From Globodera rostochiensis (lineage: Eukaryota; Nematoda; Chromadorea; Rhabditida; Heteroderidae), in contig JAEVLN010000028.1 in assembly GCA_018350325.1 (NCBI GenBank), forward strand, positions 496,001 through 560,000: a stretch of DNA of 64,000 nucleotides, given 5' to 3'. Below, piece after piece: positions 866 to 57,673 of this stretch. A model generated the notes under the pieces. It worked only from the letters and a program-made list of their open reading frames with translations, was not told the DNA's origin and searched no databases. The translations under genes and the position numbers were made by a program. Numbering within the stretch: position 1 is the first letter of the stretch; every line of letters starts with the position of its first letter.

Positions 866-3800
866 TTACTCGTCACCAATGTGCCTGTCTTCGAAGGCAA
901 TGTTGACCCAATTCCATTGATGGCATTTCCAATCAATCGCCTCCTTTTCCCATTTGGCCCATTTCACTTCGTCTCGCTTAATCGGACAACGGACCAATAG
1001 CACTTTGTCTTTGTTAAGGTGTCGCAACTCCAATCGTTCACTCGTCAAATTGTTCTTCAGATCAAATGGCACAATCTCTTCCGAAGAGCGACCCCAAAAA
1101 TAGGCAATGAAATTGGCAGAAATGGACGAAGTCCTAAATGCCTAAAATTGCATAAAAAAGGAATTAAAATTAAATGTGTGTATAAAAAGCACCCTTTTGA
1201 ATCTCTTCATCCCTTTTAACGGGTACACGCATTTGAGCACATTCGGACGGCCATCCCCGCGGGGACTGTGCAACCATTTGGCCAATGCTTGGGCAGAAGA
1301 AGCGCCGGCACTGTCATCGGCCGGAAATTCGGGGAAACGCCCAAAGGCGTCGACAAATCGGAGATTTGTACAATTGCAAAGAACGGACGGATAGAATTGG
1401 CGCAGATGGTCAAAACAAGTTGGAGACAAATATAAGCCATAAATGTTGTCGTTGATCAGAGGCCAAATTCGATGACAAATCATTTCCCAACTGCGGCTTT
1501 GGTGATTTCTAGTCGAAATGTAAAGATTGATGCTGTTGGAGTCGAAAAGTCGGTGGAAGCGTTGGAGAAAGTCGATGACACTTCGGTCGATGTAACTAAA
1601 TTTAATAAAAACAATTAAAATTATTTAAGAAATTTTTGCACAATTTTCTTAACAAAGCGCCTCTAATTTAGGGTGGGGGGGGGGCTCTATTTACTAGAGC
1701 CCGGTCGAGACGAGATCTCGTCTCGAAATCTCGAAAAATCTCGACGAGATTCATGCTTCTAGTGCTCCCTTCTTACCCGTACAAAATTTGGTGGAGTTTC
1801 TGAGAATTTTGGAAAAAAAATAATATTTTAATCAAAAATCCGACTGTTCCGGCTCGAGATTTTTCGAGATCCGTAATTTTTCGAGAATCTCGTCTCGACA
1901 TCTCGTCTCGACTAAAATGAGCTTCACGAGATTTTTCGAGATCCGAGATTTTTTCGAGAATCTCGTCTCGAGTCTCGCTCGAAAGAAGCTCGAGATTCTC
2001 GATCTCGACTCCAAAATGTTTCATAAAAACAGTGCTTTTCTTAACAAAGATTGCCTATTTTGTAAAAAAACTCCCCCGGCGGCGCCTGTCGGCACCGCCG
2101 GACATACTCCCTTTTGGCTGCAAATCTCTTAACAAATTGAGTTAAAAATTCAAAATGTTCTCGGCGGCGCCTATCGGCACCGCCGAACCTCCTCTCACTC
2201 CCAAAGTGAATAAAAATTCTCAATTTGTAAAATTTCTTAAAAAAATATTTAAAAAATTCGAACAATTTTCTCACCGGCTATTTCATACCCCACTATGGGT
2301 CAAGCCCAAAGGCGAAATGCCAAAAATTTAAGCAATTTCTCTAATTGAATTTTCTTTTGATTTTAAAACTTTGGAACACAGGCTAACACTTTTATTTCGT
2401 GACCAAATTTTGCAGACATGCTTCTAGTGCTCCCTTCTTACCCGATACAAAATTTGGTGGAGTTTCTGAGAATTTTGGAAAAAAAATAATATTTTAATCA
2501 AAAATCTCGAGTCTCGACTGTTCCGGCTCGAGATTTTTCGAGATCCGAGATTTTTCGAGAATCTCGTCTCGACATCTCGTCTCGACTAAAATGAGCTTCA
2601 CGAGATTTTTCGAGATCCGAGATTTTTTCGAGAATCTCGTCTCGAGTCTCGCTCGAAGCTCAAGTCCGGGCTCTACTATTTACAACCTTTTTGAATTATT
2701 CTGGACTCGCTGAGTTATTAATTTTGCACCACACGGTTGTGGTTTGGATTGCCTCCCACCCCATTTTTGAAAAAAAAAAAATTGTTTTCAAAGTTGAGAT
2801 TTGGCCATTACATATGGTAAAAATAAAAAATCTTAAAAAGGTTTAACTGTCAAAGTTATAAATCTCAGGGGCAGAAAAGTTGAACGAAAAAACTCGAAAT
2901 CGATATATTCTAACTTTTTTGATGACGTTCGAATGATCTTCTGCTTACAAAAAGATTATAATCTCGATTAAAGCTGTTGAAATTTACTAATTTTATTTGA
3001 TTTTTTTGGTTCAGAATAAGCTGTGTTATGATAGAAGGCGAATTTTTGGAGACGGGACGAATATTAGAGCCCCAATGGTTAAGGATTGAGAAAATTTGTA
3101 CTAGAGTTGGCCGGGGCCGGGATCCCGGCCGGGACCGGTCGAGAAATTCCCGGTCTTTTGAATGAAAAGGCGAAATCCCGATCCCGGTCCCGTTCGCCGG
3201 GACTAAGCGGGAAAAAAGTACACCCATAAGGATGGAATTTTTGAGCAACAGAACTACTGTGTAAGTGATTTTTTCCGATTTTCTCTTAACATTTACGATG
3301 CTGTAAACAATTCTAAAAATTTTTTTAAACTTTTCTAATTTTTAAAAAATATTTTAGATGATAATTCACAATTTTGATTTTATTTTTTGGTTGAACTGAA
3401 CTCACAAAATCTCCGGCGGCGCCTTTCGGCACCGCCGACCCCTCCCCCCCCCCCCCCCCCACCCCCCAGGAGTAAGCAGAATTCGCAAAAAGCCGTCCGC
3501 CCCCCAGAAAATCCTTTAACCAGAGGGTCAACGATTTTCCGCAAAAAGGATTTTTGTGATGAAAACCCAAAAGGGCTCCACTATGGGTTTTTGGAAAATC
3601 GTCGACCCCCCGGCTAAAGAATAGAGAAAGGACTTGAGCCGATCAAGATTTCGATCGAGAATCTCGATCGTCCTTTCTCTACTAAAGAAGTGCCTAAAAC
3701 AAAATTCTCAAAAATTACTGGTGATGCAATCGACTTGAAGACAATGGGGAATATATTTTTGAAAATAAAAAAAAATTTGGTTTCACCTTGTAATCATTAC

Positions 3801-4591
3801 AAAAAAAAAAAATTTTTATTGCCAGTCCCGGTTTTTCCCGTTTCCCGGTTTTTGAAAAGGCAAAATCCCGATCCCGATCCCGGTCTCGGTTTGAGATGCT
3901 GGTCCCGATCCCGGCTTTCACGGTCCCGGTCAATCCCGGTCCCGATTTTTCTCAAAAATCCCGGTCCCGGCCAACTCTAATATTTACTAAAGAGCACATT
4001 TTTGGGGACATTTTGTCGAGGTTTTCCGTTAAGGAATTTTGTAAGGGGCTTCAGAATTTACCGAAAGGGCCTAGAAACATTAATACGACTTCCTCAAATT
4101 TTTGGGGGGGGGGGGCTTTATTTTAGGATATGCGGTAATTAAAATATTAAAATAATAAAAGCAAAATCAATAAAAATATTCATATTAAATTAAACTAATT
4201 CTTAAAAATATTAAATTAAACAAGTCAAATTAAAATTAAACAGATTAATTAAAAATATTAAATTGAACTTAAAAATATTAAAAAAATGAAAAATCAATTC
4301 ACTTGCCGGAGTTGAATGCTTTTGAAACCAATCACATTGTCCGGAAACGATTCTTGTGGCAATGGAAAACGTTGAACGAGGTCAGTACCCTCGTATTTGA
4401 TAATTTGTGCCCCGCTCCCGTTTTTGGCAAATGCGGGATAAATTTTCATTGCACCCAACGACCATTGCTTCGATTTGAAATGGGCGTCCACCAATGTGTC
4501 AAATCGGAAATTGATCAATGCAAATTTCAATCCGAGATAAATCGGTGGGCAGAATTTGAAGACTTCGAACAGAACGTCGTCACAAATGAAA
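866..4591 (-). CDS. F-box-like family protein, copy A (5' end not found)
   Basis: Three minus-strand exons are supported: 4307-4591, 1193-1595 and 866-1141. The first exon encodes an F-box-like stretch ([15 protein letters not shown], then [11 protein letters not shown]). The second contains [13 protein letters not shown] and [16 protein letters not shown], and the third contains [13 protein letters not shown] and [19 protein letters not shown]. Phases agree across both junctions. The first donor is GC rather than GT (CG|GCAAGT). An acceptor precedes the first exon, so an initiating exon upstream is unseen. The protein resembles a large multicopy family that I recall from cyst nematodes; a role as ubiquitin-ligase adaptor is inferred only from the F-box-like N-terminus. 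The 2.7-kb first intron holds three short transposons (1695, 3102 and 3622). The copy at 14,528-18,138 is its close paralogue. Confidence 0.65.
1695..2675. mobile_element. hAT-like short element, word tctcgaga
   Basis: The perfect terminal inverted repeat TAGAGCCCGG / CCGGGCTCTA is flanked on both sides by the 8-bp duplication ctatttac. The inside is filled with direct and inverted copies of 'tctcgaga/ctcgtctcga', and about 240 bp is present twice (near 1752 and 2418). Two GC hairpins lie at 2076 and 2161. No coding capacity. It sits in the first intron of the F-box-like gene. Confidence 0.88.
2076..2187. repeat. Two GC hairpins (ggcggcgcc...ggcaccgcc)
   Basis: Hairpins at 2076-2101 and 2161-2187. 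Each has a 10-11-bp GC stem around tatc/tgtc, preceded by 'cttaacaaattgagt'-type AT sequence. Both are inside the element 1695-2675. Confidence 0.85.
3413..3438. repeat. GC hairpin
   Basis: ccggcggcgcctttcggcac then cgccga, followed by a long C run. Inside element 3102-3979. Confidence 0.8.
3622..3681. mobile_element. 60-bp hAT-like miniature element
   Basis: Terminal repeats TAGAGAAAGGAC / GTCCTTTCTCTA enclose only 36 bp, made of 'gatcgaga' words. The flanks are a perfect 8-bp duplication, ctaaagaa. It is nested inside the element at 3102-3979. Confidence 0.85.
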
Positions 4592-4705
4592 CTGAAAATT
4601 TAAACTTTGTGAATAAAAACCAAGAAAGTATTCTTTTAAATTTTTTTTTTGGGCAAGAAATACTCCAAAATATAATCGATTTGTTGATAAAATAAGAGTT
4701 TTAAG

Positions 4706-5428: not shown

Positions 5429-5959
5429 CAGGATGACCAGAGTACCTGATTTGTCAGGTTTTTCCTGATTTTTGGGTGTTTTCCTTATTTTTTCCTGATT
5501 TTCCATTGTTGTCTGATTTTGCCTGATTTTTGGGAGTTTTCCTGATTTTCTCCTGATTTTTCAAAAATTTGAAAAGTTTAAGCGAAAATGGCCAATTTTC
5601 TTAACAAATATCGAAAAAATCTTCAAAAAATTTTCCCGTCGGCGCCTATAGGCGCCGACGGACCTCCCCCCATTCTTAAAAAGCTTCAAAAAATGATTTT
5701 TTTTAAAATTTTGGTTGCAAATCTTTTAACAAATTGGAGTCGAAAATTCAAAATTTTCTCGGCGGCGCCTATCGGCACCGCCGACCCCCCCCCCGCACAA
5801 TTCGTAACAAATGCCTTGTCGAGAAATACAAAAAATAAAGTTTTGGCATAAAAATTCATATAATTAGGCGCTTAAAAAATATTCCTGATTTTTGCTAAGG
5901 CTGATCCTGATTTTTCAGCTTCAATTCCTGATTTTTGGGTTTGACAGGTGGTCACCCTG
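5429..5959. mobile_element. hAT-like short element, word cctgattttt
   Basis: It begins CAGGATGACCA and ends TGGTCACCCTG, and is flanked by perfect duplications gttcaaaa. The interior word is 'cctgatttttgg'. Two GC hairpins (5637 and 5759) lie in the middle. Copy B has the unfilled site near 18,258 ('tagattcaaaattcacat'), which confirms insertion. Confidence 0.88.
5637..5784. repeat. Two GC hairpins
   Basis: At 5637-5662 the palindrome is exact (gtcggcgcctataggcgccgac), a compensated variant. At 5759-5784 it is the standard form. Both are inside element 5429-5959. Confidence 0.85.
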
Positions 5960-6722: not shown

Positions 6723-7145
6723 TCAATCCCATACTGTCCAACTCCATCTTCCCCATTTGACATTCACTCATTCTCAACCAGTACCCGCAGTACAATCAAA
6801 TTTGAATTCAGAACATTGGGGCAGGCAAAATTCCATACTGTCCAACTAACTCCATCTTCTTCATTTGACATTCACTCATCCTCAACCAGTACCCGCAGAA
6901 CAATCAAATTTGAATTCAGAACATTGGGGCAGGCAAAATTCCATACTGTCCAACTAACTCCATCTTCTTCATTTGACATTCACTCATCCTCAACCAGTAC
7001 CCGCAGTACAATCAAATTTGAATTCAGAACATTGGGGCAGGCAAAATTCCATACTGTCCAACTAACTCCATCTTCTTCATTTGACATTCACTCATCCTCA
7101 ACCAGTACCCGCAGAACAATCATTTGAATTCAGAACATTGGGGCA
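6723..7145. repeat. 108-bp tandem repeat, about four copies
   Basis: Unit starts recur at 6792, 6900, 7008 and 7116 with near identity. Each unit contains 'gaattcagaacattgggg' and 'ccagtacccgcag'. Because 108 is divisible by 3, a frame stays open through the array, but I see no other sign of coding. Copy B has about two units (19,990-20,230), so copy number changed after duplication. Confidence 0.9.
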
Positions 7146-7455
7146 GGCAAAATTCCACACTACCAACTCCATCTCCCCCATTTGACATTCAACGCATTCA
7201 TTGACGGCATCAGAAAATTTTATTTTTAAAAATGAATTTAAATTGTCCACTCGAAAGTTATTCATAACATTTGCTGCATTTGCACTTGACCTGGGTTCAT
7301 ATCAAAAAACTCAACTAACATCTGGGGCTTATTTCAATTGTGTCATATCTTTGATATGATCCGAAATGTTTCGGGTCGGTTCGGATACCCGAAAAGCCCC
7401 AGATCGGTGCTTTGGTTCGTTTATCCGTACGTGACGGTTTGGTTGTGGTTCCGGG

Positions 7456-8301
7456 TAGAGCCCGGTAAAAAAAAATTTCCGGGAACGGGAACGGGGTTTT
7501 TCAAAAAGTACGGGACGGGAATCCCGAACGGGAATCCCGTGTTTTTCCCGTTCCCGTAGAAATCCCGTTCAATTTTTAACGGGAATCCCGCGGGAACGGG
7601 AAAAATTTTGAAAATTTTTAAACTAAGAATTTTTCGAAATTTTTTTTGTTGCGATAAATTTCTGATATACAATTGGAGGGTCCGACAACGCCGATAGGCG
7701 CCGTCGGAAAATTTCTAAAACATTTTTGTTAAGAAAATTGCTCAAAATTTTCGAATTTTTTCCGATTTGCGAATTTTTCAAATTTCATATTTTTTGAGAA
7801 TTTCATTTCTTGAGGTGAAGGGGGGGGGGGTCGGCGGTGCCGATAGGCGCCGCCGAGAAAATTTTGCATTTTTTGCTCAATTTGATAAGAGATTTGCTAT
7901 CAAAATCTTAAAAATACGGTAGTTTTTTTAAGCTTTTGAAATCTTAATTGATTCAGAAAATCAGAAACTAACAGAATATGGCACTGGGTGGGTTCGGCGG
8001 TGCCGATAGGCGCCGCCGTTAAAAAAAATTTGTAATTTAACATTTTTGTAATGAAAATTGGTCCAAAATTGTTAAATTTTTGAAAACATTTCGCCAAGAA
8101 AAATAAACGGGAACGGGAAAAAGACTGAAAAAAATTTCCGGGAACGGGAACGGGGTTTTCAAAAAGAACGGGACGGGAATCCCGAACGGGAATCCCGTCT
8201 TTTTCCCGTTCCCGTAAAAAATCCCGCTGGGCAAAAAAGACGGGAACGGGACCGGGATTCCCGTACTTTTCCCGCGGGAATCCCGTTCCCGCCGGGCTCT
8301 A
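7456..8301. mobile_element. hAT-like short element, word cgggaacggg
   Basis: Perfect 10-bp terminal repeats TAGAGCCCGG / CCGGGCTCTA with an exact 8-bp duplication gttccggg. Both ends are built of cgggaacggg and its complement. Three GC hairpins (7682, 7831 and 7994) occupy the centre. The empty site is intact in copy B near 22,415 ('ggttccgggtacccg'). Confidence 0.93.
7682..8019. repeat. Three GC hairpins
   Basis: At 7682, 7831 and 7994, all in the complementary orientation (ggtgccgataggcgcc). Inside element 7456-8301; the same set less one is in its relative 16,573-17,280. Confidence 0.85.
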
Positions 8302-10236: not shown

Positions 10237-10245
10237 TTTGTTAAA

Positions 10246-14527: not shown

Positions 14528-17500
14528 TTACTCGTCACCAATCTCCATGTCTTCGAAGGCAATGTCGACCCAATTCCATTGATGGCATTTCCAATCAATC
14601 GCCTCCTTTTCCCATTTGGCCCATTTCACTTCGTCTCGCTTAATCGGACAACGGACCAATAGCACTTTGTCTTTGTTAAGGTGTCGCAACTCCAATCGTT
14701 CACTCGTCAAATTGTTCTTCAGATCAAATGGCACAATCTCTTCCGAAGAGCGACCCCAAAAATAGGCAATGAAATTGGCAGAAATGGACGAAGTCCTAAA
14801 TGCCTAAAATTGCATAAAAAAGGAATTAAAATTAAATGTGTGTATAAAAAGCACCCTTTTGAATCTCTTCATCCCTTTTAACGGGTACACGCATTTGAGC
14901 ACATTCGGACGGCCATCCCCGCGGGGACTGTGCAACCATTTGGCCAATGCTTGGGCAGAAGAAGCGCCGGCACTGTCATCGGCCGGAAATTCGGGGAAAC
15001 GCCCAAAGGCGTCGACAAATCGGAGATTTGTACAATTGCAAAGAACGGACGGATAGAATTGGCGCAGATGGTCAAAACAAGTTGGAGACAAATATAAGCC
15101 ATAAATGTTGTCGTTGATCAGAGGCCAAATTCGATGACAAATCATTTCCCAACTGCGGCTTTGGTCTTTTCTAGTTGAAATGTAAAGATTGATGCCGTTG
15201 GAGTCAAAAAGTCGGCGGAAGCGTTGGAGAAATTCGATGACACTTCGGTCGATATAACTAAATTTAATAAAAACAATTAAAATTATTTTATATTTTTGCA
15301 CAATTTTCTTAACAAAACATTAAAAATTATAAATTTTCCCGACAGCGCCTGTCGGCGCCGTCGGGCCCACCAACAACAAAATCCAGATTTCCCGTCTCAA
15401 TTTCGAAATAAAATGAATTTGGTATTAAATAAACCTTTTACTATTTTTTTTATCAACATCTTAAGTTATGCTTGCTTGAATTAATTCTGTTATTCTTGGC
15501 CATTACTGAACTGCTGAGTTATTAATTTTGCACCACACGGTTGTTGTTCGGATTGATCCCCCCCCCCCATTTTTGAAAAAAAATTGTTTTCAAAGTTGAG
15601 ATTTAGCCATTATGGTCAAAATAAATATTTCTTAAAAAGGTTTAGACTGTCAAAGTTAAATCTCAGGGGCAGGAAAAGTTGAACGAAAAAACTCGAAATC
15701 TTTTCTAACTTTTTTGATGACGTTCGAATGATCTTCTGCTTACAAAGATTAACTAATCTCGATTAGAGCTTTTGAAATTTAAAATTTTATTTGACTTTGA
15801 TTCAGAATATGCTTTGATATGATAGAGGTAGGGTTCGGACGGGCGCCCGGTTCGGGCGGGCAACGGGCGGGCATTCGGCCGGGCGGGCGCCCGACTTGGA
15901 AATATTCGATCTGGGCGCTAAAGCCCGGTATTCGCCCGGCAAAGCCCGCCCGGACAAAAAATCAAAAAAAGCCCGCCCGGCAAAGCCCGCCCGGCCCCTT
16001 TTAGGTAGCCCGGAAAAAAGCCCGCCCGGCCCCAAAAAACCGAATATTTTCCGAATATTTTTATGTCATTTTTGCATGTTCGTATTTTTAAATTAACTTC
16101 CAACAGGATGCCAAACTATTATAAATAAAAGCAATAAATACATCGCACAGTTATAGTACTATTATAAATGCAATTTATATTTGTTGATTTTCTTTTAATC
16201 ATTTCTTAATTATGCCGAGAGGCGCCGTCGAGGAAATTTTAATTTTTGACTCTATTGTTAAGTTTGAAAATACGGTACTTTTTTAAAGGGTTTTAGGCAG
16301 GCGCATATGCAGGGAGTGGATGCCCCCTCCGAAATGTTTTTTGAGAACAAAACCATAGTAGGGAACCCCTTTGCTTTGCAAAATTCGTAATTTTTGGACC
16401 AATTTTCTTTACAAATCTCATCAAAAATCAAAAAAATTCCTCGCATTCGTAAAAACTTCAAAAAAAGGTAGCGTATTTTTAAATTTTGGATGAAAATCTC
16501 TTTTGAGTAAAAAATTCAAAAATTATTACGATATTTACGATTACGATACGATACACCATCCCTTGTCTATATTAGAGCCCGGTAAAAAAAAATTTCCGGG
16601 AACGGGAACGGGGTTTTCAAAAAGAACGGGACGGGAATCCCGAACGGGAATCCCGTCTTTTTCCCGTTCCCGTAGAAATCCCGTTTAAAATTTTTAACGG
16701 GAATCCCGCGGGAACGGGAAAAATTTTGAAAATTTTTAAACTAAGAATTTTTTGAAATTTTTTTTGGCGGGCACTTTGCGATAAATTTCTGATATACAAT
16801 TGGAGGGTCCGACAACGCCGATAGGCGCCGTCGGAAAATTTTGCATTTTTTGCTCAATTTGATAAGAGATTTGCTACCAAAATCTTAAAAATACGGTATT
16901 TTTTTAAGCTTTTGAAATCTTAATTGATTCAGAAAATCAGAAACTAACAGAATATGGCACTGGGTGGGTTCGGCGGTGCCGATAGGCGCCGCCGTTAAAA
17001 AAAATTTGAAATTTAAGCATTTTTTGTGATGAAAATTGGTCCAAAATTGTTAAATTTTTGAAAACATTTCGCCAAGAAAAATAAACGAGAACGGAAAAAA
17101 TACTGAAATAAAATTTCCGGGAACGGGAACGGGGTTTTCAAAAAGAACGGGACGGGAATCCCGAACGGGAATCCCGTCTTTTTCCCGTTCCCGTAAAAAA
17201 TCCCGCTGGGCAAAAAAGACGGGAACGGGACCGGGATTCCCGTACTTTTTCCGCGGGAATCCCGTTCCCGCCGGGCTCTAGTCTATATCGTACATGATCA
17301 GGAATGATCAATCTCTAACTTTTAAGCTGTTTCAAAAAAATTTTTAAATATTCGCCCGGTATTCGGATTTTTTCCAAAATCCGGGCTAAAGCCCGGTATT
17401 CGCCCGGCAAAGCCCGCCCGGAGGAAAAACCAAAAAATATTCGCCCGGCAAAGCCCGCCCTGACAAAAAATCGAAAAAAGCCCGCCCGGCCACTTCCCGG

Positions 17501-18138
17501 CCCCAACCCGATTATCCGAACCCTAGATAGAGGGCGAATTTTTGGGGACGGGACGAATATTAGAGCCCCAATAAGGGCTTCAGAGTTTACCGAAGGGCCT
17601 AGAAACATTTAATACGACTTCCTCAAAATTTTTTTTTAAATTGGGGGGGGGGGGGCTTTATTTTAGATAATATAATTAAGAACAAAACCAATAAAAATAT
17701 TCATATTAAAATTGAACAAATTCAATTAAAGAAATAAAATTAAAATTGAACAAATTCAATTAAAGTTATTAAAATTAAATTGAACAAATTCATTTAAAAA
17801 TATAAAATTGAACTTAAATATTAAATTAAAATGAACAAAATCAATTCACTTGCCTTAGTTGAATGCTTTTGAAACAGATCACTTTGTCCGGCAACGATAC
17901 TTGTGGCATTGGCAGACGTTGCACGAGGATAGCACCCTCGTATTTGACAATTTGTGCCCCGCTCCCGTTTTTTGCAAATGCCGGGTAAATTTTCATTGCA
18001 CCCAATGACCATTCCTCCAATTTGAAATGGGCGTCCACCAATGTGTCAAATCGGAAATTGATCAATGCAAATTTCAATCCGAGATAAATCGGTGTGCAGA
18101 ATTTGAAGATTCCGAACAGAACGTCGTCACAAATAAAA
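14528..18138 (-). CDS. F-box-like family protein, copy B (5' end not found)
   Basis: Minus-strand exons are 17,854-18,138, 14,855-15,257 and 14,528-14,803. Junction phases are consistent: the first donor AG|GCAAGT is GC type and joins to give the codons for LSYIDRSV, and the second junction gives FKRAFRTSS. The first exon reads [14 protein letters not shown] then [14 protein letters not shown]. The second has [16 protein letters not shown], and the third has IVPFDLKNN and WAKWEKEA. All three exons are open. The 2.6-kb first intron is mostly one nested pair of transposons (15,829-17,525, interrupted by 16,573-17,280). As in copy A, an upstream initiating exon is missing from view. The family assignment is from memory; the F-box call is inference. 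Confidence 0.68.
15338..15365. repeat. GC hairpin variant
   Basis: cgacagcgcctgtcggcgcc then gtcgg. Near the 3' side of the F-box intron; host element not identified. Confidence 0.7.
16573..17280. mobile_element. hAT-like short element nested in 15,829-17,525
   Basis: A close relative of the element at 7456-8301, with the same TAGAGCCCGG termini and cgggaacggg word. It has a different perfect duplication, gtctatat, so it inserted independently. GC hairpins lie at 16,808 and 16,969. Confidence 0.93.
16808..16994. repeat. Two GC hairpins
   Basis: At 16,808 (acaacgccgataggcgccgt) and 16,969 (standard). Inside element 16,573-17,280. Confidence 0.85.
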
Positions 18139-19989: not shown

Positions 19990-20230
19990 TCAATCCCATA
20001 CTGTCCAACTCCATCTTCCCCATTTGACATTCACTCATTCTCAACCAGTACCCGCAGTACAATCAAATTTGAATTCAGAACATTGGGGCAGGCAAAATTC
20101 CATACTGTCCAACTAACTCCATCTTCTTCATTTGACATTCACTCATCCTCAACCAGTACCCGCAGAACAATCAAATTTGAATTCAGAACATTGGGGCACG
20201 CAAAATTCCATATTGTCCAACTAACTCCAT
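19990..20230. repeat. 108-bp tandem repeat, about two copies
   Basis: The copy B counterpart of 6723-7145, with the same unit but fewer repeats. Confidence 0.85.
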
Positions 20231-39565: not shown

Positions 39566-40245
39566 AATATAAACTAAAAGTAATAGCAAAATGTCAATTA
39601 CAGAAAATGCCGAGAGTAATTGTAAATTTTATTTTAATTTTATTTTCAAAAATTTTCATAGATTTTTTCACTACAATTATAAATAGATTTATGAAAATAG
39701 CCAGAAGTTTCAAATATCGATTATATATAGGAGTTTTTATAAATTGTTGCTAAATTAGGGACCTTGCTTTTTGAACTTTTAAAAATTAGTAAAAATGGGC
39801 ACATTCTAACCACCATTCAAGCTTGAATATAAACTAAAAGTAATAGCAAAATGTCAATTACAGAAAATGCCGAGAGTAATTGTAAATTTTATTTTAATTT
39901 TATTTTCAAAAATTTTCATAGATTTTTTCACTACAATTATAAATAGATTTATGAAAATAGCCAGAAGTTTCAAATATCGATTATATATAGGAGTTTTTAT
40001 AAATTGTTGCTAAATTAGGGACCTTGCTTTTTGAACTTTTAAAAATAGTAAAAATGGGCACATTCTAACCACCATTCAAGCTTGAATATAAACTAAAAGT
40101 AATAGCAAAATGTCAATTACAGAAAATGCCGAGAGTAATTGTAAATTTTATTTTTATTTTATTTTCAAAAATTTTCATAGATTTTTTCACTACAATTATA
40201 AATAGATTTATGAAAATAGCCAGAAGTTTCAAATATCGATTATAA
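39484..40245. repeat. 260-bp tandem repeat, about 2.9 copies
   Basis: The unit begins ttgttgctaaattaggg at 39,484, 39,744 and 40,004, with almost no differences. The first unit overlaps the last coding exon of the transposase, so the array grew from its 3' end. 40,246-40,494 shows no recognisable feature. Confidence 0.92.
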
Positions 40246-42555: not shown

Positions 42556-42808
42556 TAGAGATCGGACGGTACGGGAAAGTACCGATGCTTTTTCGGTACT
42601 TTTCGGTACTCAGGCATCGGTACTTTCCCGAAAAGTACCGACCGAACCTTTTCGGAAAGTACCGATGGTTTTCGGCACCGGTACTTTTTCGGTACTTTAC
42701 CGAAAAGTACCGACCAAACCTTTTTGGACTTTTTCGGTACTTTTCGGTACCGGTACTTTTTCGGTACTTTACCGAAAAGTACCGACCGACCCTTCTGGCC
42801 GGTCTCTA
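42556..42808. mobile_element. hAT-like short element, word cggtacttttcggtac
   Basis: Ends TAGAGATCGG / CCGGTCTCTA with an exact duplication aataaaat. 253 bp composed almost wholly of cggtac words. Same family as 55,880-56,481. Confidence 0.92.
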
Positions 42809-43450: not shown

Positions 43451-44012
43451 AAAAAAACAATTAACGTTGCCGGGATTTAAACTAGGGTTCCTCCCCGACC
43501 CCTCGGGGGCGGGAAAGTCAGTCGGGGGTCGGGGAGGCCGAGGTTGCCATGTCGGGGGTCGGGGACGACCCAATTGTCGAGGTCGGGATCGGGGGTCGGG
43601 GATCGGGGTTGGTTGAAGAAAATTCTGTTCATAAAAATTTTTTTAAATAAAAATTTCAGCATTTTTTCATAAAATTTCAGCAATGTCTTTACTAGGCAAG
43701 CAAAAAATATAATTTTATTTTTATATCCGTTCCTCATCTTTAAAAAGCTTGAGAGTAAGGAAATTTTGTAATTTTTATAAAGGATATTTGACGGAGTTCA
43801 CGTCATGTTTGACTTGGCCCAACAACTCAGAATAATAGAAATCACGCGAAAACTTCTCCAAATATCTTGTTGTGGCCAAGTTTTGCTTTTCTGAGCAAAT
43901 TTTGATCAGCGATTTTTCTTTAAAAATTTGAGGGGGGGGCGAACAATTTAATTTGATATTATTTGCATACAAATTTTTTAATTGGCATTTTTTCGATTAT
44001 GAATTTAATGAT

Positions 44013-44492
44013 TAGGGCCCGGATTTTTAGGGTTTACCTATTTTTGCGAACGGGGTTTGACGAGAGAAGCCCAGAAATAGCATTTTTCCAAAAATTTTTT
44101 AAGAAAAATGCAAAAAAAAAGAGAAAATCTACCCCTAAAAGTCAAATTTTTTTTCAAACTAAAAATGCACCCTTAAAAAAAGACTTTTTCTTGGACCAAA
44201 AATCCACCCCCAAAGATCGGCATTTTCCCTAAAAATTTTTTATTTGATTTTTTATAAAAGTTTTAAAAGCGTGTGAAAATATTATATTTACAATTGCAAG
44301 AAGAAAATTAATAAAGACTGATTGATTTTAAAGGTTTTAACGCAAAAATTGACTGGATTTAGTCAGTTTTAGCACCTTATTTAGTCCGTATTTTGCCACT
44401 TTTTTGGGGTTTTTGTCCCTATTTTGGAGTTTTTTAGTCCTTACTATATGTCCCTTTTTCACGTTTTTTAGTCCCTAAAAATCCGGACCCTA
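44013..44492. mobile_element. hAT-like element, word tttttagtccc
   Basis: A 20-bp terminal repeat TAGGGCCCGGATTTTTAGGG on the left; the right end has one mismatch. Flanks ttaatgat and tttatgat agree at 7 of 8. 'tttagtccctattttgg' words fill the right side. Confidence 0.8.
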
Positions 44493-44750
44493 TTTATGAT
44501 ACTAAAAACTTAAGAGGTTACCCCACATTTGCGGCGCAGACATTTGCGGCCTAGACTTTTGCGGTCCAGACATTTGCGGCCCAGACTTTTGCGGTCCAGA
44601 CATTTGCGGTCTGCTGGAAATCAGACATTTGCGGTCCGACTTTTGCGGTCCGACATTTGCGGCCCAGATATTTGCGGCCTCAGCCAAAATAGGACATTTG
44701 CGGCCCGACATTTCGCCAAAATTCAAAAACATTAATTAGTAAGTCCATAA

Positions 44751-44934
44751 TAGAGTAGGCCGGGACCGGGATTTTTGGGAAAAACCGGGACCGGGATTTC
44801 AGAAAATTTAAAACCGGGAATTTAATAGGGGATAAAACTTTTTTCCCGGTCCCGGTGAGACCCGGGACTTAGGTACTCGTTTGTACTTTTTTTCAGTACC
44901 TTAGTCCCGGAACCGGGAAAAATGGCCCACCCTA
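44751..44934. mobile_element. hAT-like short element, 184 bp, word ccgggacc
   Basis: Ends TAGAGTAGGCC and GGCCCACCCTA match at 9 of 11 bases; the target duplication gtccataa is exact. Confidence 0.85.
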
Positions 44935-45692
44935 GTCCATAATTGTTTTCACTTTATGTCTCAGTAAAGCTCTTCGTTTCGATTAGTATCATTATCGTAT
45001 CGCAAAATCAAGCTCTAACAAATTTTCTTGCGGTTACGTAGACCTCTTGTCGGATCAAGCTTGTAAGACCTAATTTTTTTCTAGTAGTGTGGTGATAAAT
45101 CTTTTAATTTATTTGAAATACTTAAATGCCATCCCTCATTGCATTTTTAGTCCTATGTAGGTTTAAAATAGTTGAGTCATGCATATTCCAATTAGAGTGC
45201 GGCAAAATCACATTTGCGGGATCCCGCTGCGGGATTTTTTTCCGCAAGTCGTGCGGGAGCGGATTTGCGGGATAAATCCCGCAAAATCCCGCAAATTCCG
45301 CATTTTAAATTTGCGGGATCCCGCGCGGGATTGCGGGATTTTTTCAAAAAAATTAAAACACCTTTCACTGAACCGAATCGTTCAATTTTAGTATCATTTA
45401 ATGCTCTTATTTGTCTGAAACTACTTGTAACTTGTGCCGGGACCGGGGTTTTAACCCGGGACCGGAACCGTGAAAGCCGGAATCGGAATTTTGACTTTTT
45501 AAAACCCGAGATTGGGATTAACAGGGATTGACAATGGGGGAATTTTTTTTGTTCAAACATTTTTTTCGAAAATTACTTGATGGAATAACGCAATAAAAAG
45601 TGGAAAACACACACCTAAACGACTTTTTTGGCTTGCCCCCCCCCCTTCCCCCCCCCCCCCCGCCGAGAAAAAATTTTCTGGTTAGCCTTGGG

Positions 45693-45847
45693 GTCGGCGG
45701 TGCCGATAGGCGCCGCCGAGAAAATTTTGAAGATTTTAACGATATTTGTTAAGGAAATTGCACCCTAAAATTAAAAAATACGGTAATTTTTTGAACCTTT
45801 TTAAGAATCGGGGGGGAGGGCAGGCGGTGCCGACAGGCGCCGCCGGT
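45693..45847. repeat. Two GC hairpins
   Basis: At 45,693 and 45,821, preceded by G runs. Inside element 45,193-46,400. Confidence 0.85.
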
Positions 45848-46029
45848 AAAAATTTTTGAGTTTTTTGATGGAATTTGTTATAATGGCCCAAAAATTATTA
45901 ATCGTCCAACCAAAAAAAAAGAAAAATCAAAAAGATGCCAAAAAAAATTTTAAAGATTGAAAATCTAAGAAGAAATTGTTTACTTTAGTACAAATACTCA
46001 CTGAAAGCTCTTAAAATAATTTTGTACTG

Positions 46030-46093
46030 TAGGGGTTTGAACAAACACCCGAAAATCCCACGGACAGCACCAGTACCACTTAGCCACACTATG
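46030..46093 (-). repeat. tRNA-derived SINE-like segment
   Basis: On the minus strand an A-box-like tggctaagtggtactgg precedes a B-box gtttgttcaaacccc. It lies inside the element 45,193-46,400. Confidence 0.5.
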
Positions 46094-46460
46094 TATTGAT
46101 TCCTACCCAAATATCCCACCCACCTTGGTACTTTAATTTAAATGATTGGCAAAATGTCAATCCTAATTTTGAATAAATGACATTATTCACTAACAAAATG
46201 ATCAATCCCGCAAATCCCGCACCTAAATTGCGGGATCCCGCTGCGGGATTTTTTTTTTGAAATCTTTGCGGGAGCGGATTTGCGGGATTAATCCCGCAAA
46301 TCCCGCAATCCCGCAAATCCCGCAAAACGCAAAAAATGCGGGATTGCGGAGCGGGATCCCGCAAAATCCCGCGCGGGATCCGCTCCCGCGCCGCACTCTA
46401 ATTCCAATCATAGTGTGAAGCAAGAGAGAGTCAAGGAATAATATGTTTAATTGGCGCCAC

Positions 46461-47456
46461 TACAACTCGCCTATGTAACATTTCGCCTACACAGCCAATA
46501 GGCAACATTTCGCCTACAAGGTTAAAATGTTACATTTCGCCTACCCAGTCAAAAAGTAACATTTCGCCTACAAATTTTAAAAATTCGATTTTTAAAAAAA
46601 TGTTGTTGCCGGGCATTGACGGAGTTGTGCGGTCTTGGCGAAGGAAGCCCAACTTGAATTGAGTAGTTGTAGTCAAAAAATGTAGACGTTATGAGTGCCC
46701 GGTTCTAGACTCCCTAAAACAAAAGAAACTTGTGCAAAACACTCGAATTAATTGCCAGAATTGTTCAAAGGATCGGCCCATCCTCTTTGATTTGCAGAGG
46801 GGTCAAACGCATTGGCACCCCATCTCCACAAAAACCTCGCAGGTGACGTCCTTCTTTGCTTGCCCGAATTGTTGAGGCTTTGCGTTTGGCTTTTCCCTTC
46901 TTGGATCTTCCTTTTCAGACCCAGCTTTTTAGAATCAGCCTAAAATTCAATAGGCTCCAAGGTTTCTTCTCCAACCAGAAGTGATCGGCGAATCTCGATG
47001 AACTAATGACATTTGTTTTTTCTTCTTCTCGAACTGTACTTGCTTTAACGCAATGTACTGCTTCTTCTTCTTCTGCAGGCCTCAACTTTGTTGCGCAACA
47101 AATTTTCGAGATTCATTTTCGGGTAATCTAAAGAACTTTGGTCCCGTTTTTTTTTGTTTTAATGTAGGTTTGAAGAAATTCTGAGAAGTACACGGGGGTT
47201 ATCGAGGTCGCTGATCACGAATATGACATCAGATTTAGCATATGGCATCATCTAATCTATGATTTCAACATTTAAGATTTGTGAAAAAAATCAAAAAAAT
47301 TTTCAAAGTCGCTAAAAGGGTGTTTCTAGGGGTATTCGGGGCGTAGAATTCGAATCTGACCTTTTTGTTGTATTTTTGTGCTTTTTTGAATGATTTGAAG
47401 CCAACATTAATTTTTGAATTTGCTGGGTAGGCGAAGTGTTACATAGGCGAGTTATA
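46461..47456. mobile_element. Element with aacatttcgcctac ends
   Basis: Inverted ends of about 28 bp around aactcgcctatgtaacattt, with one or two mismatches. The word aacatttcgcctac is repeated near the left end. The interior (46,600-47,400) is unlike other sequence in the window, with no open frame that I trust. No target duplication found. Confidence 0.6.
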
Positions 47457-47959
47457 CAGCAGCGGTTTAATTAATGTTTTGAATTTTGGCGAAATGACTG
47501 GCCGCAAATTTTGGCTGAGGCCGAAAATGTCTGGGCCGCAAATGTCCGAAAATGGGGCACGAAATTCCTTCACATTATGGCCGCAAAAGTCTGGACCGAA
47601 ATGTCTGCGCCGCAAATGTCTGGACACGACTTAAGATCATTCAACTTTGAACAAAGTAATAAATACATTTTTAAATAGTCGCCGAATTTTGCTGACCACA
47701 AGAGTTAAAATGATCTGAATTGGCATCAAAAATATTTTAAAAAAGACGTAACAATTTAAAAATTTTCAAATTGTTTCAAAAGTACTTTTCTCCCAAAAAA
47801 AGTCCGGTCTTTAGGGGTGTTCACCCCCGATCCCCGACCTTAAAAAAAGTCGGGGACGGGGGGTCTGGGAGGCCGGGGTTGGCCATGTCGGGGGTCGGGG
47901 TCGGGAAGGACACCTTTTTTGGGCTCCGGGTCGGGGGTCGGGGTCGGGGAGGAACCCTA

Positions 47960-48013: not shown

Positions 48014-48849
48014 TAGTGATGCACGAGAGTCTCGGTCTCGAGTCTCGACTCGAGAAATTTCTCGGGTTTTTTGGGTCTCGGTCTCGGTCTCGACTCTCGG
48101 GTTTTTAGTCTCGGAAAACGAGACTTTTTTGCACTGGTAAAGATGGCATTTTTGGAGAGAATTTGTTTAGAATTCAAAGCTTAGATTTGAAAAACATAAT
48201 GACAAATCAAATTTAAAAATCCTTTAAATAAATCCTTTGCACAGCGCATCCGTTGGATCCTCTTATGACTCAGTGGTTAAGCTCTATATCGTAACTTATG
48301 TATCGGCGGTTCTATTCCCATAATTAAATTCGGTAGTTATTTTTGGTGTGTAGACATTTGCGGCCCAGACATTTGCGGCTTAAAACAAAATAGACATTTG
48401 CGGCCCGACATTTGCGGCCCAGTCCACACTCTCTGATAATTCCACACTCTCTAATAATTCCGCCCTTTCTGAGGAGGTTGAAAAATAATTCCACATGTGG
48501 AATTACAAGAGGTAATACGGTAACCCAAAAATACACTCCTAAATTTAAACTAAATAAATTCTTGTTCGCTGCGGCGCCTGCCGGCACCGCTGGTCCCTGC
48601 AAAACCCTTTAATAAAAATTGCAAAAATTTTTTGATTTTTCCAAATTTTTGAACCAAAAAATTAAAAAATTTTCAAAAAAGTCTCGGTCTCGAGTCTCGA
48701 CTCGAGAAATTTCTCGGGTTTATTGGGTCTCGGTCTCGGTCTCGAGTCTCGGGGTCAAGTCTCGGTCTCGGTCTCGAGTCTCGGGGTCAAGTCTCGGTCT
48801 CGGTCTCGACTCTCGAGTCTCGGTAAATTTTGGGTCTCGTGCATCACTA
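48014..48849. mobile_element. hAT-like element, word gtctcggtctcgag
   Basis: Ends TAGTGATGCACGAGA and CTCGTGCATCACTA with exact duplication cactagac. gtctcgg words lie at both ends. Inside are a GC hairpin (48,568), acatttgcggcc words and a weak tRNA-like segment at 48,263-48,320. Confidence 0.9.
48568..48594. repeat. GC hairpin variant
   Basis: gctgcggcgcctgccggcac then cgctgg. Inside element 48,014-48,849. Confidence 0.7.
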
Positions 48850-49186: not shown

Positions 49187-49198
49187 TAACTCTCAAAT

Positions 49199-51624: not shown

Positions 51625-54600
51625 TTAATCGCCGTTCTGTCCTACTCAGCGCTGAGTTTGATCGCATTTGTCGGAAACGCACTGATTTTGGCCGTTTTTT
51701 TGCGATTCAAAAGGCTTCGGACGCCCACAAACATGTTCATTGCTAAACTGGCAATTGGTGAGTTTAAATTGAAAAATTTGTTAATTTAATTTAAAATGTT
51801 GCGAATAAATTAATAATTTTTTGGAAAATTAAATGAAAATAAGAACTGTTATTTTCTTAAAACTATTAATATAACTAGAGACCGGACCCAAAACCAAAAT
51901 TTTTTTTTGGGTTTTTGTACAAAAAATTGGACCAAAAGTTTTTTGGGTTTTGGTTTTGGGTCAACTCGGAGTAAAACCCAAAAAAAACCAAAACCCAAAA
52001 AATCCCAAAAAAATCTTTTGGTTTTGGTTTTGGGTCCATGCCCTTTTTTGTACAAAAGTTTTGGGTGTTGCCCGGTTGAATTTACACCCCTAAAGATAGC
52101 ATCATCGAGTGATTTTTCAATCTTTTTTTAAGAATCCTTCGAAAGTAATTGATGGCTTAGTGGTTTGTCTTTTCGGCAACCCTTACGTTATGTGTTGGGT
52201 TCGAACCTCCTTTAGTGCGAGCAATTATTTTTCCTCTGCTCACATACGCTTCCCCCATTAATAAATTTTAAAATAATTTTTCGAATATTTTCTAATTCAG
52301 ATGACAGAAAAAAAGAATTTTTGAAAAAAATTCATCACATCTTTTTGAATTTTTTTCAACAAATTTTTTTAACAAAGATTGCCAAATTTTCATATTTTTC
52401 TGAACTTTTTGGTTTAATTTTGTAACAAAGACGATCTGTAAAAATTTTTCTGGCGGTGCGGGCGGACCTCTCCCATTCCTAAAAAAACTACCATAATTTT
52501 AAAATTTTGGTTGCAAATCCCTTAACAAATTGAGTCAAAAATTCAAAATTTTCTCGGCGGCGCCTATCGGCACCCCGACCGCCACCCCCCTAGTAAGGCA
52601 AAAGAAATTGGATTTCTGAAAATTCAAAAATCGGCTAATTATCGAAATTTTACACAATTTTCTTAACAATAAAAAAGTTTTGGCATTAAATTCATTATAT
52701 TTACACACCTAAAAAAATTCCTGATTTTTTTCTGATTTTTCAGCCGGTATTCCTGATTTTTGTTTGATAGGTGGTTTCCCTGATTTAATATTATTCATGG
52801 ATTTATGATGACTGGTCAGAAAAATGCGTTGAATAAAACTTTTACTAAAAATTTTAAAAAAATCGGAAATTTGGGCATTTTATTATGTTTTCTCAAATTT
52901 TTTGGGTTTTGTACAAAATTTTGGGTTTTGTCAACCCAAAAAATACCAAAACCAAAAAATCCCAAAAAAATGTTTTGGTTTTGGTTTTGGGTCAAATTGG
53001 CGCACAACCCAAAAAAAAACAAAACCCAAAAAATCCCAAAAAAATCTTTTGGTTTTGGTTTTGGGTCCAAGTTTCCGGTCTCTAAATATAACTAAATCAA
53101 TTCAATTAGTAGTTAGGTAATTAAAACAAATTTAACAAAAAAAATTTATACATTAATAAATGTTAATTGTTTATTATTTTATTTAAAAATAAATTTGTTT
53201 GGTATAATAGGTGACCTCATGGTTAGCGTGTTTTGCATACCGCTCAGTTATTGGCATGTGCTGGTGTTTGAGGACCAACGGTACGGCACTTTTTTACGAT
53301 TTGTTTGGACAATTCTTTAAATTTTTCTAATTTAAGTTGGGTGTTTGGTGCTTTTCTGTGCAAATGCTTCAACTACCTTCAGGTACCCACTTTTTGAACA
53401 TTTTTTTAATTGATTTTCCTTAATAAAAAAACTGTAATTTTTCAGAAAAAAAAAATTTATGCCCCAGTGCCAATCGACACGGCACGGCACTATCATTGAC
53501 ATCCACTCAGACAATTTTTTTTATTGATTTACGTTTTTGAGTTAAAGCGTTGAAATTATCGACCGAACCCTAAAGTTTCCGGCATGCCCTGGACTAAATT
53601 TAAAAATAAAAAATTAAATATCCATAAGTATTTTGTAAATTTTCAGGCTACCGCGGTGTTTCTTTCCTCGTGGACGCTGGTGGCAATTTCTTTTGACCGC
53701 TTCATCGCCATCCAGTTTGCCATGTCGCCGTGGCTAAAAATGACGCGCCGTCGCGCACTGTACGCCATCCTAGGCACTTGGTTGTTCTCGCTTGGCATGG
53801 CACTGCCATTATTGGTTGTCAACAAGGTAAAGAAACGCGCTGTTCATTTTAAATTATGTTGACAGCTGATCAATTTTCCGAGGGTTTAAAATTAATTTTA
53901 TCCCCTATAAATCGGATTGGATTTGATCAGATCAGAATCATGATCACTTTTATTGAATTGAATTTATCATCAGAATCTCGATCACTTTTTGTTGAAATGA
54001 ATTGATCAGTGATAGCCTATATGTGTAGTCTGTGATTGATCTAAGCCTGGATTATATCAGAAAGCATCGTTTTTTAGCTTTCCCATTCTTCTGACGGCGT
54101 CGAGACGTGCCTGGAACAGTGGGAGCATTTCTTCTCCGCAAATTATGTACACGTCCAGTCTGTTTGGCTGCAATATTGTTTGCCTTTGGCTGTGCTGCTG
54201 ATCACCTACACGGCGATTGGTTGCAAAATGTGGAACAGTGGCAAAGTGCCCGGAGGCGAAAGCTATTTGCCGCCAAGGGCCAGCAACAAACTGTACGACA
54301 AGGTACAGTAGTACCCTTTATATCATTTGAAATGCAATTGTACTGTGTATTCTGGTAGCCATGAGATCTGATCTAGACTGATCACATATTTTGATTGATC
54401 ATATCCATATTTTAAAGTGATTTAGGAATCCACGACACCAACCAGTGGAAGATATTCAAAGGCACGTGAATCCAGCATATGCGGCACGTTGACTGAAGGC
54501 AGTCCACGAACAGTTGATGGGACAGTCCGAAGACGAAGCTCATTGCAACGGGCAAATGTTCAACAGGAGCGTAAGAGTCCGTCAAAAAGGTGATCGCGGA

Positions 54601-55317: not shown

Positions 55318-56817
55318 ATGGTCGATTGGCTTGGCATCCTTGCATCTTCTACGTGCTGATCCTGATAGTTGGCATATGGGCCGGTCGCAAGACGGATGCC
55401 ACCAAAACGGGCATCGGCGATCAGACAGAAGAGGTCACTTTCCTAGCATCCGGAATTGGCATAAAAATAGTGTCAATTAAAAAACTTCCATACCTAGTTT
55501 AAATTGGCATCAATTTTTTTTGGCATTTTTCAGATAATGTTAGCCGGTCGAAACATTGGCACGCTGGTAGGGCATCTTCACAATGACTGGTGAGGCCAAA
55601 ACATACAATTTCTACCATAATTCCTATGTTTGAAATGCTTGAATCAACCTTAATCCACCTAAACTTGACACACTATCGGTTCTACAGTAATTCACACCAA
55701 ATTAAAAAATTTGGCATTTTATAGTAAAATTAAATGAAGAATTTTCACACCTTCAAGCAAATGCACTCGCATTTTTCAGAAAAAAAATTCATTCAATTTT
55801 CGTGCCAATATATATGGGAAACGGCATATGAATTATTAATGGGCCAGCAGGCTTTGAAATCCTGGGACCATATAGATATTAGAGATCGGACGGTACGGGA
55901 AAGTACCGACGCTTTTTCGGTACTTTTCGGTACTCAGGCTTCGGTACTTTACCGAATAGTACCGACCGAACCTTTTCGGAAAGTACCGATGGTTTTCGGT
56001 ACCGGTACTTTTTCGGTACTTTACCGAAAAGTACCGACCGAAAAAATCTGAGTACCGAAGGTACCGACCGAACAAAAAGCAGGAACAGGTCGAAATGCTG
56101 ATTTTTTTGAACCGCAATCTCCCAATACTCAATTATTAATATAAGAAAGCCAAGATTTCCAAAATAAACGATTTTTTGTTGAAAAGTTAATTATAAAAAA
56201 TTTTGGTACCGAAAACCGAAAAAGTACCGACAATTTTTTTCGGTACTTTTCGGTACCGGTACTTTTTCGGTACTTTTCGGTACTCAGGCATCGGTACTTT
56301 CCCGAAAAGTACCGACCGAACCTTTTCGGAAAGTACCGATGGTTTTCGGCACCGGTACTTTTTCGGTACTTTACCGAAAGTACCGACCGAACCTTTTTGG
56401 ACTTTTTCGGTACTTTTCGGTACCGGTACTTTTTCGGTACTTTACCGAAAAGTACCGACCGACCCTTCTGGCCGGTCTCTAATAGATATGATGCACTATA
56501 ACAATGGAAATTCTCGATGATGCTGGCGGCATTTTCCAAGGATTATAAATTTAATTTAGTATTTTTTTTTTACGAATATTTATTGAACCGTCTTTATAAA
56601 ATTTTCCGATGTTAAAATTGAGCCCTATTTTTAATTATTACTATGTGCTTTTTTAGCCTAGGTGGCGCCTATATAAACGGCACAGCGGAAGCTCTCTACA
56701 ACGGGGGCCTACTCGGATGCCAAGCGCCGTTACGCAATGTCGTTGGTGGTGGGCGGCCTGCTATTTGCAAAGCCAATGCGCGACATGGGCTACGTGACCA
56801 TGCTGGACCCGCTCCAA
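55318..56817 (+). pseudogene. cho-1: High-affinity choline transporter CHO-1, broken 5' fragment
   Basis: Three exons match the N-terminal region of the sodium-coupled choline transporter (SLC5A7), which reloads choline at cholinergic synapses. They are about 55,318-55,433 (MVDWLGI..., then YVLILIVGIWAGRK), 55,534-55,589 (MLAGRNIGTLVG) and 56,657-56,817 ([20 protein letters not shown], then [14 protein letters not shown] and TMLDPLQ). Each has damage: bases missing after the first seven codons, an extra G after TLVG, missing bases before GGAY that bring in a stop, and a shift after CQAP. The last exon would end in a GC donor (CAA|GCAAGT). No later exons follow; most of the transporter is absent. 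Sequencing error could explain single shifts, but four lesions plus truncation favour a pseudogene. Intron 2 holds the element 55,880-56,481. Confidence 0.85.
55880..56481. mobile_element. hAT-like element, word cggtacttttcggtac, in cho-1 intron
   Basis: Ends TAGAGATCGG / CCGGTCTCTA with exact duplication atagatat. Word blocks at both ends surround a short AT-rich centre. The outer 250 bp match 42,556-42,808 closely. Confidence 0.93.
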
Positions 56818-57114: not shown

Positions 57115-57250
57115 ACCGGCCGGGACGGGACCGGCGGGACGGAACCGGCGGGACGGGACCGGCCGGGATGGGACTGACCCCCTTACTCGCGCTGCGCACT
57201 CGCAGCAATCAGCAGCGAGTGGCGTACGCGTTAGCGACGCGCGCGCCACA
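57115..57250. repeat. Word array cgggacgggaccggc and GC-rich tail
   Basis: About 65 bp of cgggacgggaccgg words, related to 19,310-19,380, followed by 'cgcgctgcgcactcgcagc' GC-rich sequence. No termini found. 56,830-57,110 shows only a weak GC hairpin remnant near 57,026. Confidence 0.5.
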
Positions 57251-57419
57251 GCGTGCAGCGTAGGCATTTGCCCAATATCTTTGCCCATTTATCTTTCATT
57301 TTTCTCTCTTTTCTGCCATCTTCACTTTCCACACTATTTCTTTTAAATCTCTCGTCTAACCTTCTTCATCCCCAAGCGCATCGTTCACAAAACTCAAAAC
57401 AAACATTAAACTTTATTAT

Positions 57420-57673
57420 TAGGACTGCGATTTATATGGGAATCCATATTTTTCTTCGACTTAAAACGGCTTCTAAATGCCATAAATGATGTTTATAGCT
57501 TTGTTTGGAGCTTCTAGAGCCCATTTTATCATCCATATTTTTTCCATATTTCGCGATTTTTATCCATATTCCATAATTTTATCCATATTTTGCAATTTTT
57601 GTCCATATTTTACAATTTTTCATCCATATTTTATGGCCTTCGAGATTTTTTGACCATATAAATCGTAGCCCTA
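57420..57673. mobile_element. hAT-like short element, word tccatattt
   Basis: Left end TAGGACTGCGATTTATATGG and right end complement agree at 18 of 20; the duplication tttattat is exact. The inside is ccatatttt / tttgtccatatt words. Word-like relatives lie at 11,730-12,010. Confidence 0.88.

Follow-up and report, generated by a model that had tools for sequence, protein, structure and literature searches.

Family-specific repeated words at the ends of hAT transposons in the nematode Globodera rostochiensis

Background

What are the short words that are repeated at the ends of small transposable elements in the genome of Globodera rostochiensis? The question is raised by a stretch of 64,000 nucleotides (assembly GCA_018350325.1, contig JAEVLN010000028.1, positions 496,001 to 560,000 of the forward strand; hereafter, the window), in which a series of elements with terminal inverted repeats (TIRs) and 8-bp target-site duplications (TSDs) carries, just inside the ends, words that differ from family to family. 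An initial annotation of the window had assigned these elements to hAT-like miniature transposons, and had proposed that the words are either amplified binding sites, each tuned to its own transposase, or products of a copying process that spreads end sequence inward. These are hAT transposons of Globodera, mostly non-autonomous in the window, and we consider it probable that the words are docking sites for the transposase of the same family.

Elements of the window and their transposase-bearing relatives

We named the window elements by their start positions (e.g. 7456), and we denote as L0xx the loci around matches to the domain PF05699. An exact 8-bp TSD with a matching inverted end was found at all 14 starts that the initial annotation had listed as perfect, and for 43483 and 44013 the TSD matched, as it had said, at 7 of 8 bases. 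A de novo scan of the window, requiring a TIR of at least 9/12, an exact 8-bp duplication and [TC]AG ends, returned 15 pairs, namely the same 14 and 25015-25721, versus no pair in 11 of 12 shifted-flank controls and one pair in the remaining control. No [TC]AG pair was returned when duplications of 7, 9 or 10 bp were scanned for in the window. The 8-bp duplications are thus far commoner than at shifted positions, and a chance origin was rejected. The listed 14 have T at position 2 in 10 cases and A at position 7 in 12, which reproduces the earlier counts near the hAT preference nTnnnnAn. The trend holds over 45 duplications, 16 from the window and 29 from related loci, with T in 36/45 (binomial 2e-12) and A in 40/45 (binomial 1e-14), these sets including members of the same family and so not being all independent.

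The relatives were sought in the genome (92.6 Mb, 80 contigs), for which 100 PF05699 matches were listed, and we fetched the loci around 40 of them. An 8-bp duplication with matching ends encloses the domain in 28 of the 40 loci, hereafter the masters. The pair of L030 is doubtful (TIR 6/12), yet it was counted in the word test, in the window-master comparison and in the end-array comparison. The loci with no accepted enclosing pair (L011, L013, L020, L024, L026, L031, L033, L035, L039, L040 and L048) were left out of the element counts, except L033, of which we used the domain and, in the word and TIR comparisons, a single end. In a Pfam scan of nine peptides, PF02892 (the BED finger) exceeded the cut-off in L021, L027 and L038 and fell short of it in L010 and L018/L012; one peptide matched PF05699 and three had no match, L037 and L046 among them. 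Genome-wide, PF02892 has 45 matches. By the 8-bp TSD, the nTnnnnAn preference, the BED finger of the peptides named and PF05699, the last in elements that share TIR and word with 8-9 of the 16 window elements compared, these elements belong to the hAT superfamily.

We compared 16 window elements (3622 was dropped) with 31 entries, consisting of the 28 accepted masters, L030, one element nested in L036 and the L033 end. For eight window elements the entry closest in word was also a best TIR match (at least 9/10) (1695, 7456, 16573, 42556, 44751, 45193, 48014 and 55880), or for nine if the tie of 51876 is counted; this concordance was not reached in 2000 shuffles of the entries, among which family members are not independent. 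End homology to masters was found for eight window elements, and for 45193 to L033, the aligned stretches being 22 to about 340 bases long and about 77-100% identical. Of 1991 candidates for further copies of 7456, 40 were scored, and 39 of these are full-length copies. The sampled loci yielded no master for 5429, 15829, 21187, 25015, 43483, 44013 and 57420; in 15829, 43483 and 44013 the TIR agrees at 9/10 with that of masters with which no word is shared.

Because the masters share both TIRs and words with them, the small window elements with shared ends are miniature inverted-repeat transposable elements (MITEs), end-retaining derivatives of hAT masters whose interior was lost or replaced. 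An origin of the words in a process private to the small elements was rejected, since the masters carry the arrays already.

Three further features were noted. MITEs that belong to different word families have in common a hairpin-bearing filler about 95 bp long (core GGCGGTGCCGATAGGCGCCGCCG). Of its 23 window matches, 15 lie in elements that total 13.6 of 64 kb, and 8 of the 13 top-level elements contain it (binomial 7e-6); it is present also outside elements and in many fetched loci. Two copies of CAGGGATGTGCTGCTCTGG, both preceded by the same 8 bases (CTTCCGGC), begin with 11 bases identical to the TIR of the L027 family and are perhaps a duplicated segment or solo ends. On contig C11 of genome G000, at about 100.6-112.1 kb, matches to PF05699 and to an L037-type N-terminus occur five times each, about 2.72-2.76 kb apart, and form a tandem array of a hAT-derived unit.

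Repeated words and their conservation

For each element we took the 6-mer that occurs most often in the terminal 250 bp and compared its count with those in 200 dinucleotide shuffles. All 200 shuffles were exceeded in 15 of 17 window elements, the test being missed in 3622 (60 bp; 59/200 shuffles) and in 51876 (15/200 shuffles). Of 28 transposase-bearing elements (L030 included, L047 not), 25 likewise exceeded them all. Mild repetition is common in this genome, 15 of 60 control stretches outside known elements beating all of their own 60 shuffles. A count above 10 was reached in only two of these 60 (17 and 20), which may be elements that escaped recognition. With counts of 8 (44013), 9 (57420) and 10 (5429 and 44751), four window elements overlap the upper range of the controls, some of the four being shorter than the control stretches.

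In most families, both the masters and the derivatives have roughly 10-35 copies of a private word of 6-8 bp, lying no more than about 250 bp from the ends. Over 17 words, picked from the same elements in which they were then counted, the density was 20-70 per kb in the ends of the own family, 0.05-3.1 per kb in the ends of other families and 0-1.5 per kb in 40.4 kb of window background, so the proposal that the word of each element is family-specific is borne out and the words are not equally frequent outside such elements. CGG is present on one strand in 12 of the 17.

The word copies are also conserved. In nine pairs of same-word relatives, some elements entering two pairs, differences were counted at 40/1274 word positions and at 214/1882 of the remaining aligned positions, hence 3.6 times less often in words (odds ratio 0.25, Fisher P 1.4e-18). 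By pair, seven clearly show this conservation, one shows it weakly (L016 with 1695, 14/130 vs 22/161) and one is opposite (L010 with L028, 2/130 vs 2/230).

Word switches between sister families

Two array-wide word switches were observed between sister families with alignable arrays. Between L018 (CGGTAA) and L015 (CGGTAT), whose C-terminal open reading frames (ORFs) are identical at 134/146 positions, 22 of the 35 L018 words are switched, three are the same, one is otherwise changed and nine fall in gaps; between L034 (CGGATA) and L037 (CGGTTA), with C-terminal ORFs identical at 135/144, the corresponding numbers are 24, two, six and three of 35. The same base change is therefore found in 22/26 and 24/32 ungapped words, while the transposase ends are 92-94% identical. 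In both sister pairs the switched bases are found on both strands and at both ends, with binomial tails per end of 2e-9 to 1e-18 under a null of one third of the non-word difference rate.

Genome-wide, the first switched family gave 58 matches to a degenerate three-word pattern, of which, by our reading of the matches, 52 had T in all words, five had A in all and one was mixed; with any base and at most two mismatches there were 107 matches, and among the 100 of them listed we read 73 as all T, 23 as all A and four as non-uniform. For the second family, 73 matches with any base consisted of seven all A and 66 all T, none being mixed. Such copies share descent, so a single switch event may lie behind each family; the point of weight is that most words have the change at the same place. 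In the L038/L043/L045 family the arrays are graded and mixed with no clean switch, and may represent an intermediate stage.

Layout of the arrays and alternative explanations

A first alternative is molecular drive without function, in which slippage, unequal exchange and template switching during gap repair homogenise the arrays, so that variants sweep through them and copies inherit the result. The layout of the ends offers it some ground. When we compared left and right subterminal regions in 40 elements (the short or nested 3622, 42556, 43483, 44013, 44751 and 57420 being left out), a direct match was better than an inverted one in 37 (30-232 bp, 75-100% identity); L047 had an inverted match only, L046 and 25015 had none, and the inverted portion of the ends was mainly the short tip. 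Tandem units of about 72 bp are visible in L012 and L018, and the motif repeats of the VANDAL elements of Arabidopsis contract, expand and evolve synchronously (PMC10398659). Against drive, the switched words occupy, even on the assumption that block copying is free, 7-12 distinct flank contexts, which themselves stayed in place, so conversion tracts would need to be very short; words are, moreover, better conserved than spacers, and the identical change is seen on both strands and at both ends. We consider drive alone rather unlikely.

Some copying between ends in direct orientation does seem to happen. The copying process put forward in the initial annotation is not needed as the origin of the words in the MITEs, whose arrays are already in the masters. 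For the direct arrays, three causes are conceivable, namely block copying, selection against long palindromes and a requirement that the ends be asymmetric; by analogy with Hermes, of which a form carrying the left end twice is reported to be inactive in insect cells (PMC10368747), they could be linked to the last of these.

Improbable, in our judgement, is a second alternative, namely that another factor, element-coded or of the host, binds the words and acts on expression or silencing and not on synapsis. An example would be a sequence-specific anti-silencing protein, as in the VANDAL elements, whose family-private short tandem motifs are bound by VANC proteins (PMC10398659). In our elements the words persist in MITEs without genes and adjoin the cut ends, and BED and hAT-dimer domains were the only Pfam matches among the nine peptides scanned. 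Three of the nine had no match, the scan covered a minority of the ORFs, and a small second protein may be present. Very improbable is an action of the arrays through structure (hairpins or silencing RNA), for which the words, being present in both orientations, could pair, since direct matches prevail over inverted ones between the ends and the conservation of a specific word with a single-base switch is not a form that pairing requires.

Other features of the window

The features of the window are collected in Table 1. Two blocks, about 8.3 kb in all, consist of AAATGCCAAAGGGGAG-type units in satellite-like arrays, in which longer periods of about 337 and 400 bp are also seen, and each block is followed by similar segments with 16-bp repeats. 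Clean tandem arrays occur at three places; two of these, separated by 13 kb, have a 108-bp unit, and a 260-bp unit has 2.9 copies at 99%. The window gave no match to Rfam at gathering scores. A search with one ORF of the window gave 53 proteins, every one assigned to Globodera pallida or G. rostochiensis, with 83% identity over 65% of the query for the best.

Table 1. Features of the window, with the count of the word and its count in shuffles in brackets, and word cosines to relatives
Position	Feature	TIR	TSD	Word	Relatives
176	CAGGGATGTGCTGCTCTGG copy
1695..2675	hAT MITE	TAGAGCCCGG	CTATTTAC, exact	TCGAGA/AATCTCG	same family as transposase-bearing L016 and L017; 0.96 to L017
3622..3681	60-bp minimal element	TAGAGAAAGGAC	CTAAAGAA, exact	too short for word test
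5429..5959	hAT MITE	CAGG[AG]TGACC	GTTCAAAA	AATCAG (10; 4.5)
7456..8301	hAT MITE	TAGAGCCCGG	GTTCCGGG	ACGGGA(A)	master family L010 and L028; 0.98 to L028; both ends 89-90% identical to L010
9625..9805	single CGGTAT-type element end (TAGTGTTCGGCA...), strand +; pattern match C21:505640; right limit approximate; absent from initial annotation; partner end not found in window
13299	CAGGGATGTGCTGCTCTGG copy
15829..17525	hAT element, holds 16573-17280	TAGGGTTCGG	GATAGAGG	AGCCCG/GCCCGC (11; 3.9)
16573..17280	hAT MITE, second copy of 7456 family, nested in 15829		GTCTATAT		0.99 to L028
21187..22332	hAT MITE	CAGGGTTGCAAC	GTTCGGAT	ATCCGA (20; 5.3)
25015..25721	extra element, absent from initial annotation	CAGTGTTT	GTCCCTTC, exact	CTGTTC (14; 4.3)
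42556..42808	hAT MITE	TAGAGATCGG/TAGAGACCGG	AATAAAAT	CGGTAC	master family L047; 0.96
43483..47959	4.5-kb element with three nested elements	TAGGGTTCCTCCCCGACCCC (20/20)	7/8	CCCCGA (17; 4.3)
44013..44492	element nested in 43483	TAGGG[CT]CCGG	7/8	CTAAAA, weak (8; 4.3)
44751..44934	hAT MITE nested in 43483	TAG[AG]GT[AG]GGCC	GTCCATAA	CCGGGA	master family L041; 0.90
45193..46400	hAT MITE nested in 43483	TAGAGTGCGG	ATTCCAAT	GCGGGA	partner L033 (single end identified); 0.98
48014..48849	hAT MITE	TAGTGATGCACG	CACTAGAC	CGAGAC	master family L045; 0.99
51876..53084	hAT MITE	TAGAGACCGG	AATATAAC	TGTACAA, weak, AT-rich	masters L032 and L044; 0.59 to each
55880..56481	hAT MITE, second copy of CGGTAC family; transposase ORF tail of L047 retained		ATAGATAT	(32; 5.0)
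57420..57673	hAT MITE	TAGG[AG]CT[GA]CGAT	TTTATTAT	ATATGG (9; 3.0)
2037-2204, 5593-5794, 7676-8038, 16213-16261, 16804-17040	GGCGGTGCCGATAGGCGCCGCCG-core filler
21617-21696, 25199-25250, 45691-45881, 52505-52577	GGCGGTGCCGATAGGCGCCGCCG-core filler
26383-32017, 33365-35983	satellite-like arrays of AAATGCCAAAGGGGAG-type units
32280-32604, 36215-36538	similar segments with 16-bp repeats
6740-7168, 20007-20249, 39484-40244	clean tandem arrays

Discussion

Of the two origins first proposed for the words, amplified transposase-binding sites is the best reading, because the masters carry the same ends and words and because the word copies are conserved; the binding itself we infer from sequence. In line with this reading, L021, L022 and L029, whose BED scores to each other are 0.86-0.88, have the same word (cosines 0.98-1.00). 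Each family's transposase would bind the word arrays through its BED-finger region, and many BED fingers of a transposase multimer would grip each end. The TIR, common to related families, would serve as the tip for catalysis, and the word as an address that decides which transposase may move the element. Arrays would expand and spread block by block, both in tandem and from one end to the other, the orientation staying direct.

Binding of subterminal repeats by hAT transposases is published (PMC3260210, PMC3143072, PMC10368747). Maize Ac/Ds resembles the window elements in its 8-bp TSD, its short TIR and a repeated hexamer, which in Ac/Ds is AAACGG and is bound cooperatively by the transposase in the terminal 200 bp, and Ds resembles our MITEs in being non-autonomous, with ends kept and a filler interior; as described there, Ac/Ds is one family with one motif, whereas Globodera has many families, each with its own word, and switching between sisters (PMC3260210). 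In Hermes, as is proposed here, a BED finger recognises short subterminal repeats (AAG[T/C]) and the ends are asymmetric, while its motif has 4 bp, with 17 and 14 copies in the two ends, as opposed to words of 6-8 bp at up to 70 per kb (PMC10368747). The transposase of Herves binds CG/AATTCAT (PMC3143072). Proteins with a zf-BED and a Hermes-type DNA-binding domain, such as the CGG-binding CGGBP and hAT-19 that derive from domesticated hATs, usually prefer CGG or CGC motifs, which fits the CGG in 12 of our 17 words, and the diverse motifs of those from hATs match the subterminal regions of the hATs tested. They differ in being mostly host proteins from many genomes, and array-wide switching is absent from the portion of that account on which we draw (PMC8097297).

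Like Ac and Hermes, the elements described here repeat a short motif in the last 250 bp or so of each end, 3622, 51876, L032, L044 and L046 being exceptions. Searches restricted to the open-licence part of PubMed Central showed no account of hAT elements in which a word had been switched array-wide. VANDAL elements are of the MULE type, for which the duplication is 9 bp; the window has no [TC]AG pair at 9 bp, and a hAT domain instead. As the nearest precedent, VANDAL/VANC shares with our elements private short tandem motifs that evolve synchronously, each being specific in VANDALs to the protein of its own family (PMC10398659, PMC5142408), and differs in that the anti-silencing protein is separate from the transposase and in that here the elements are hATs of a nematode. 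In their anatomy the arrays are subterminal arrays of the Ac/Hermes type and not a new kind of system. The statement of the initial annotation that the pattern was undescribed as a system was therefore too strong.

Several results weigh against words as docking sites of the own transposase. Over 19 representatives, C-terminal domain similarity is correlated weakly with word similarity (rho 0.20, 43/1000 permutations) and more closely with TIR similarity (rho 0.44, reached in 0/1000), TIR and word similarity being correlated at rho 0.24 (1/1000). Similarity of the BED finger is not correlated with that of the word in 11 elements (Mantel test, rho 0.08, 611/2000). In L046, a hAT in which a BED-like finger can be made out by eye, no word is present, and the words of L032 and L044 are weak, none of the three having a 6-mer beyond all 200 shuffles. 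Near the listed ends (100 of 107 matches for the first family), no BED-bearing copy of the second type, CGGTAT or CGGATA, was found for either switched pair. Finally, Hermes retains about 70% activity after mutation of two inner left-end sites (PMC10368747), and arrays of dozens of sites therefore exceed what the Hermes model needs.

Words are, in fact, narrower than transposase clades and follow the transposase less well than the TIRs do, and the suggestion that each word family pairs with one transposase clade was not supported in that form. In L010, L016, L044 and L047, with C-terminal similarity of 0.56-0.62 (where printed) and TIRs agreeing at 9-10/10, the word cosines are 0.00-0.05; for L044 and L047 the terminal bases agree at 10/10, with C-terminal similarity 0.56 and word cosine 0.05. 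We consequently rejected the TIR and the word as one unit, since near-identical TIRs accompany unrelated words.

If the words are docking sites, a change in the preference of the DNA-binding domain may be followed by selection, or conversion with selection, which would re-write the word throughout the arrays and yield a new private family. More tentatively, and as a possibility that we hold to be less likely than its opposite, a hAT lineage could in this way change its lock: by altering its DNA-binding preference together with one letter of the word in both arrays, it would escape its own MITEs and its sister families. In that case the TIR and the catalytic core would be little changed, MITEs with the old word would be stranded, and the private words would record successive escapes within one genome. 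The two sister pairs, with 22 and 24 copies showing the same base change, bear on the question of how a transposase and its sites shift specificity jointly when an element has dozens of such sites and a genome many copies of the element. The presence of many families in a single genome could also be of use in working out how BED fingers recognise DNA.

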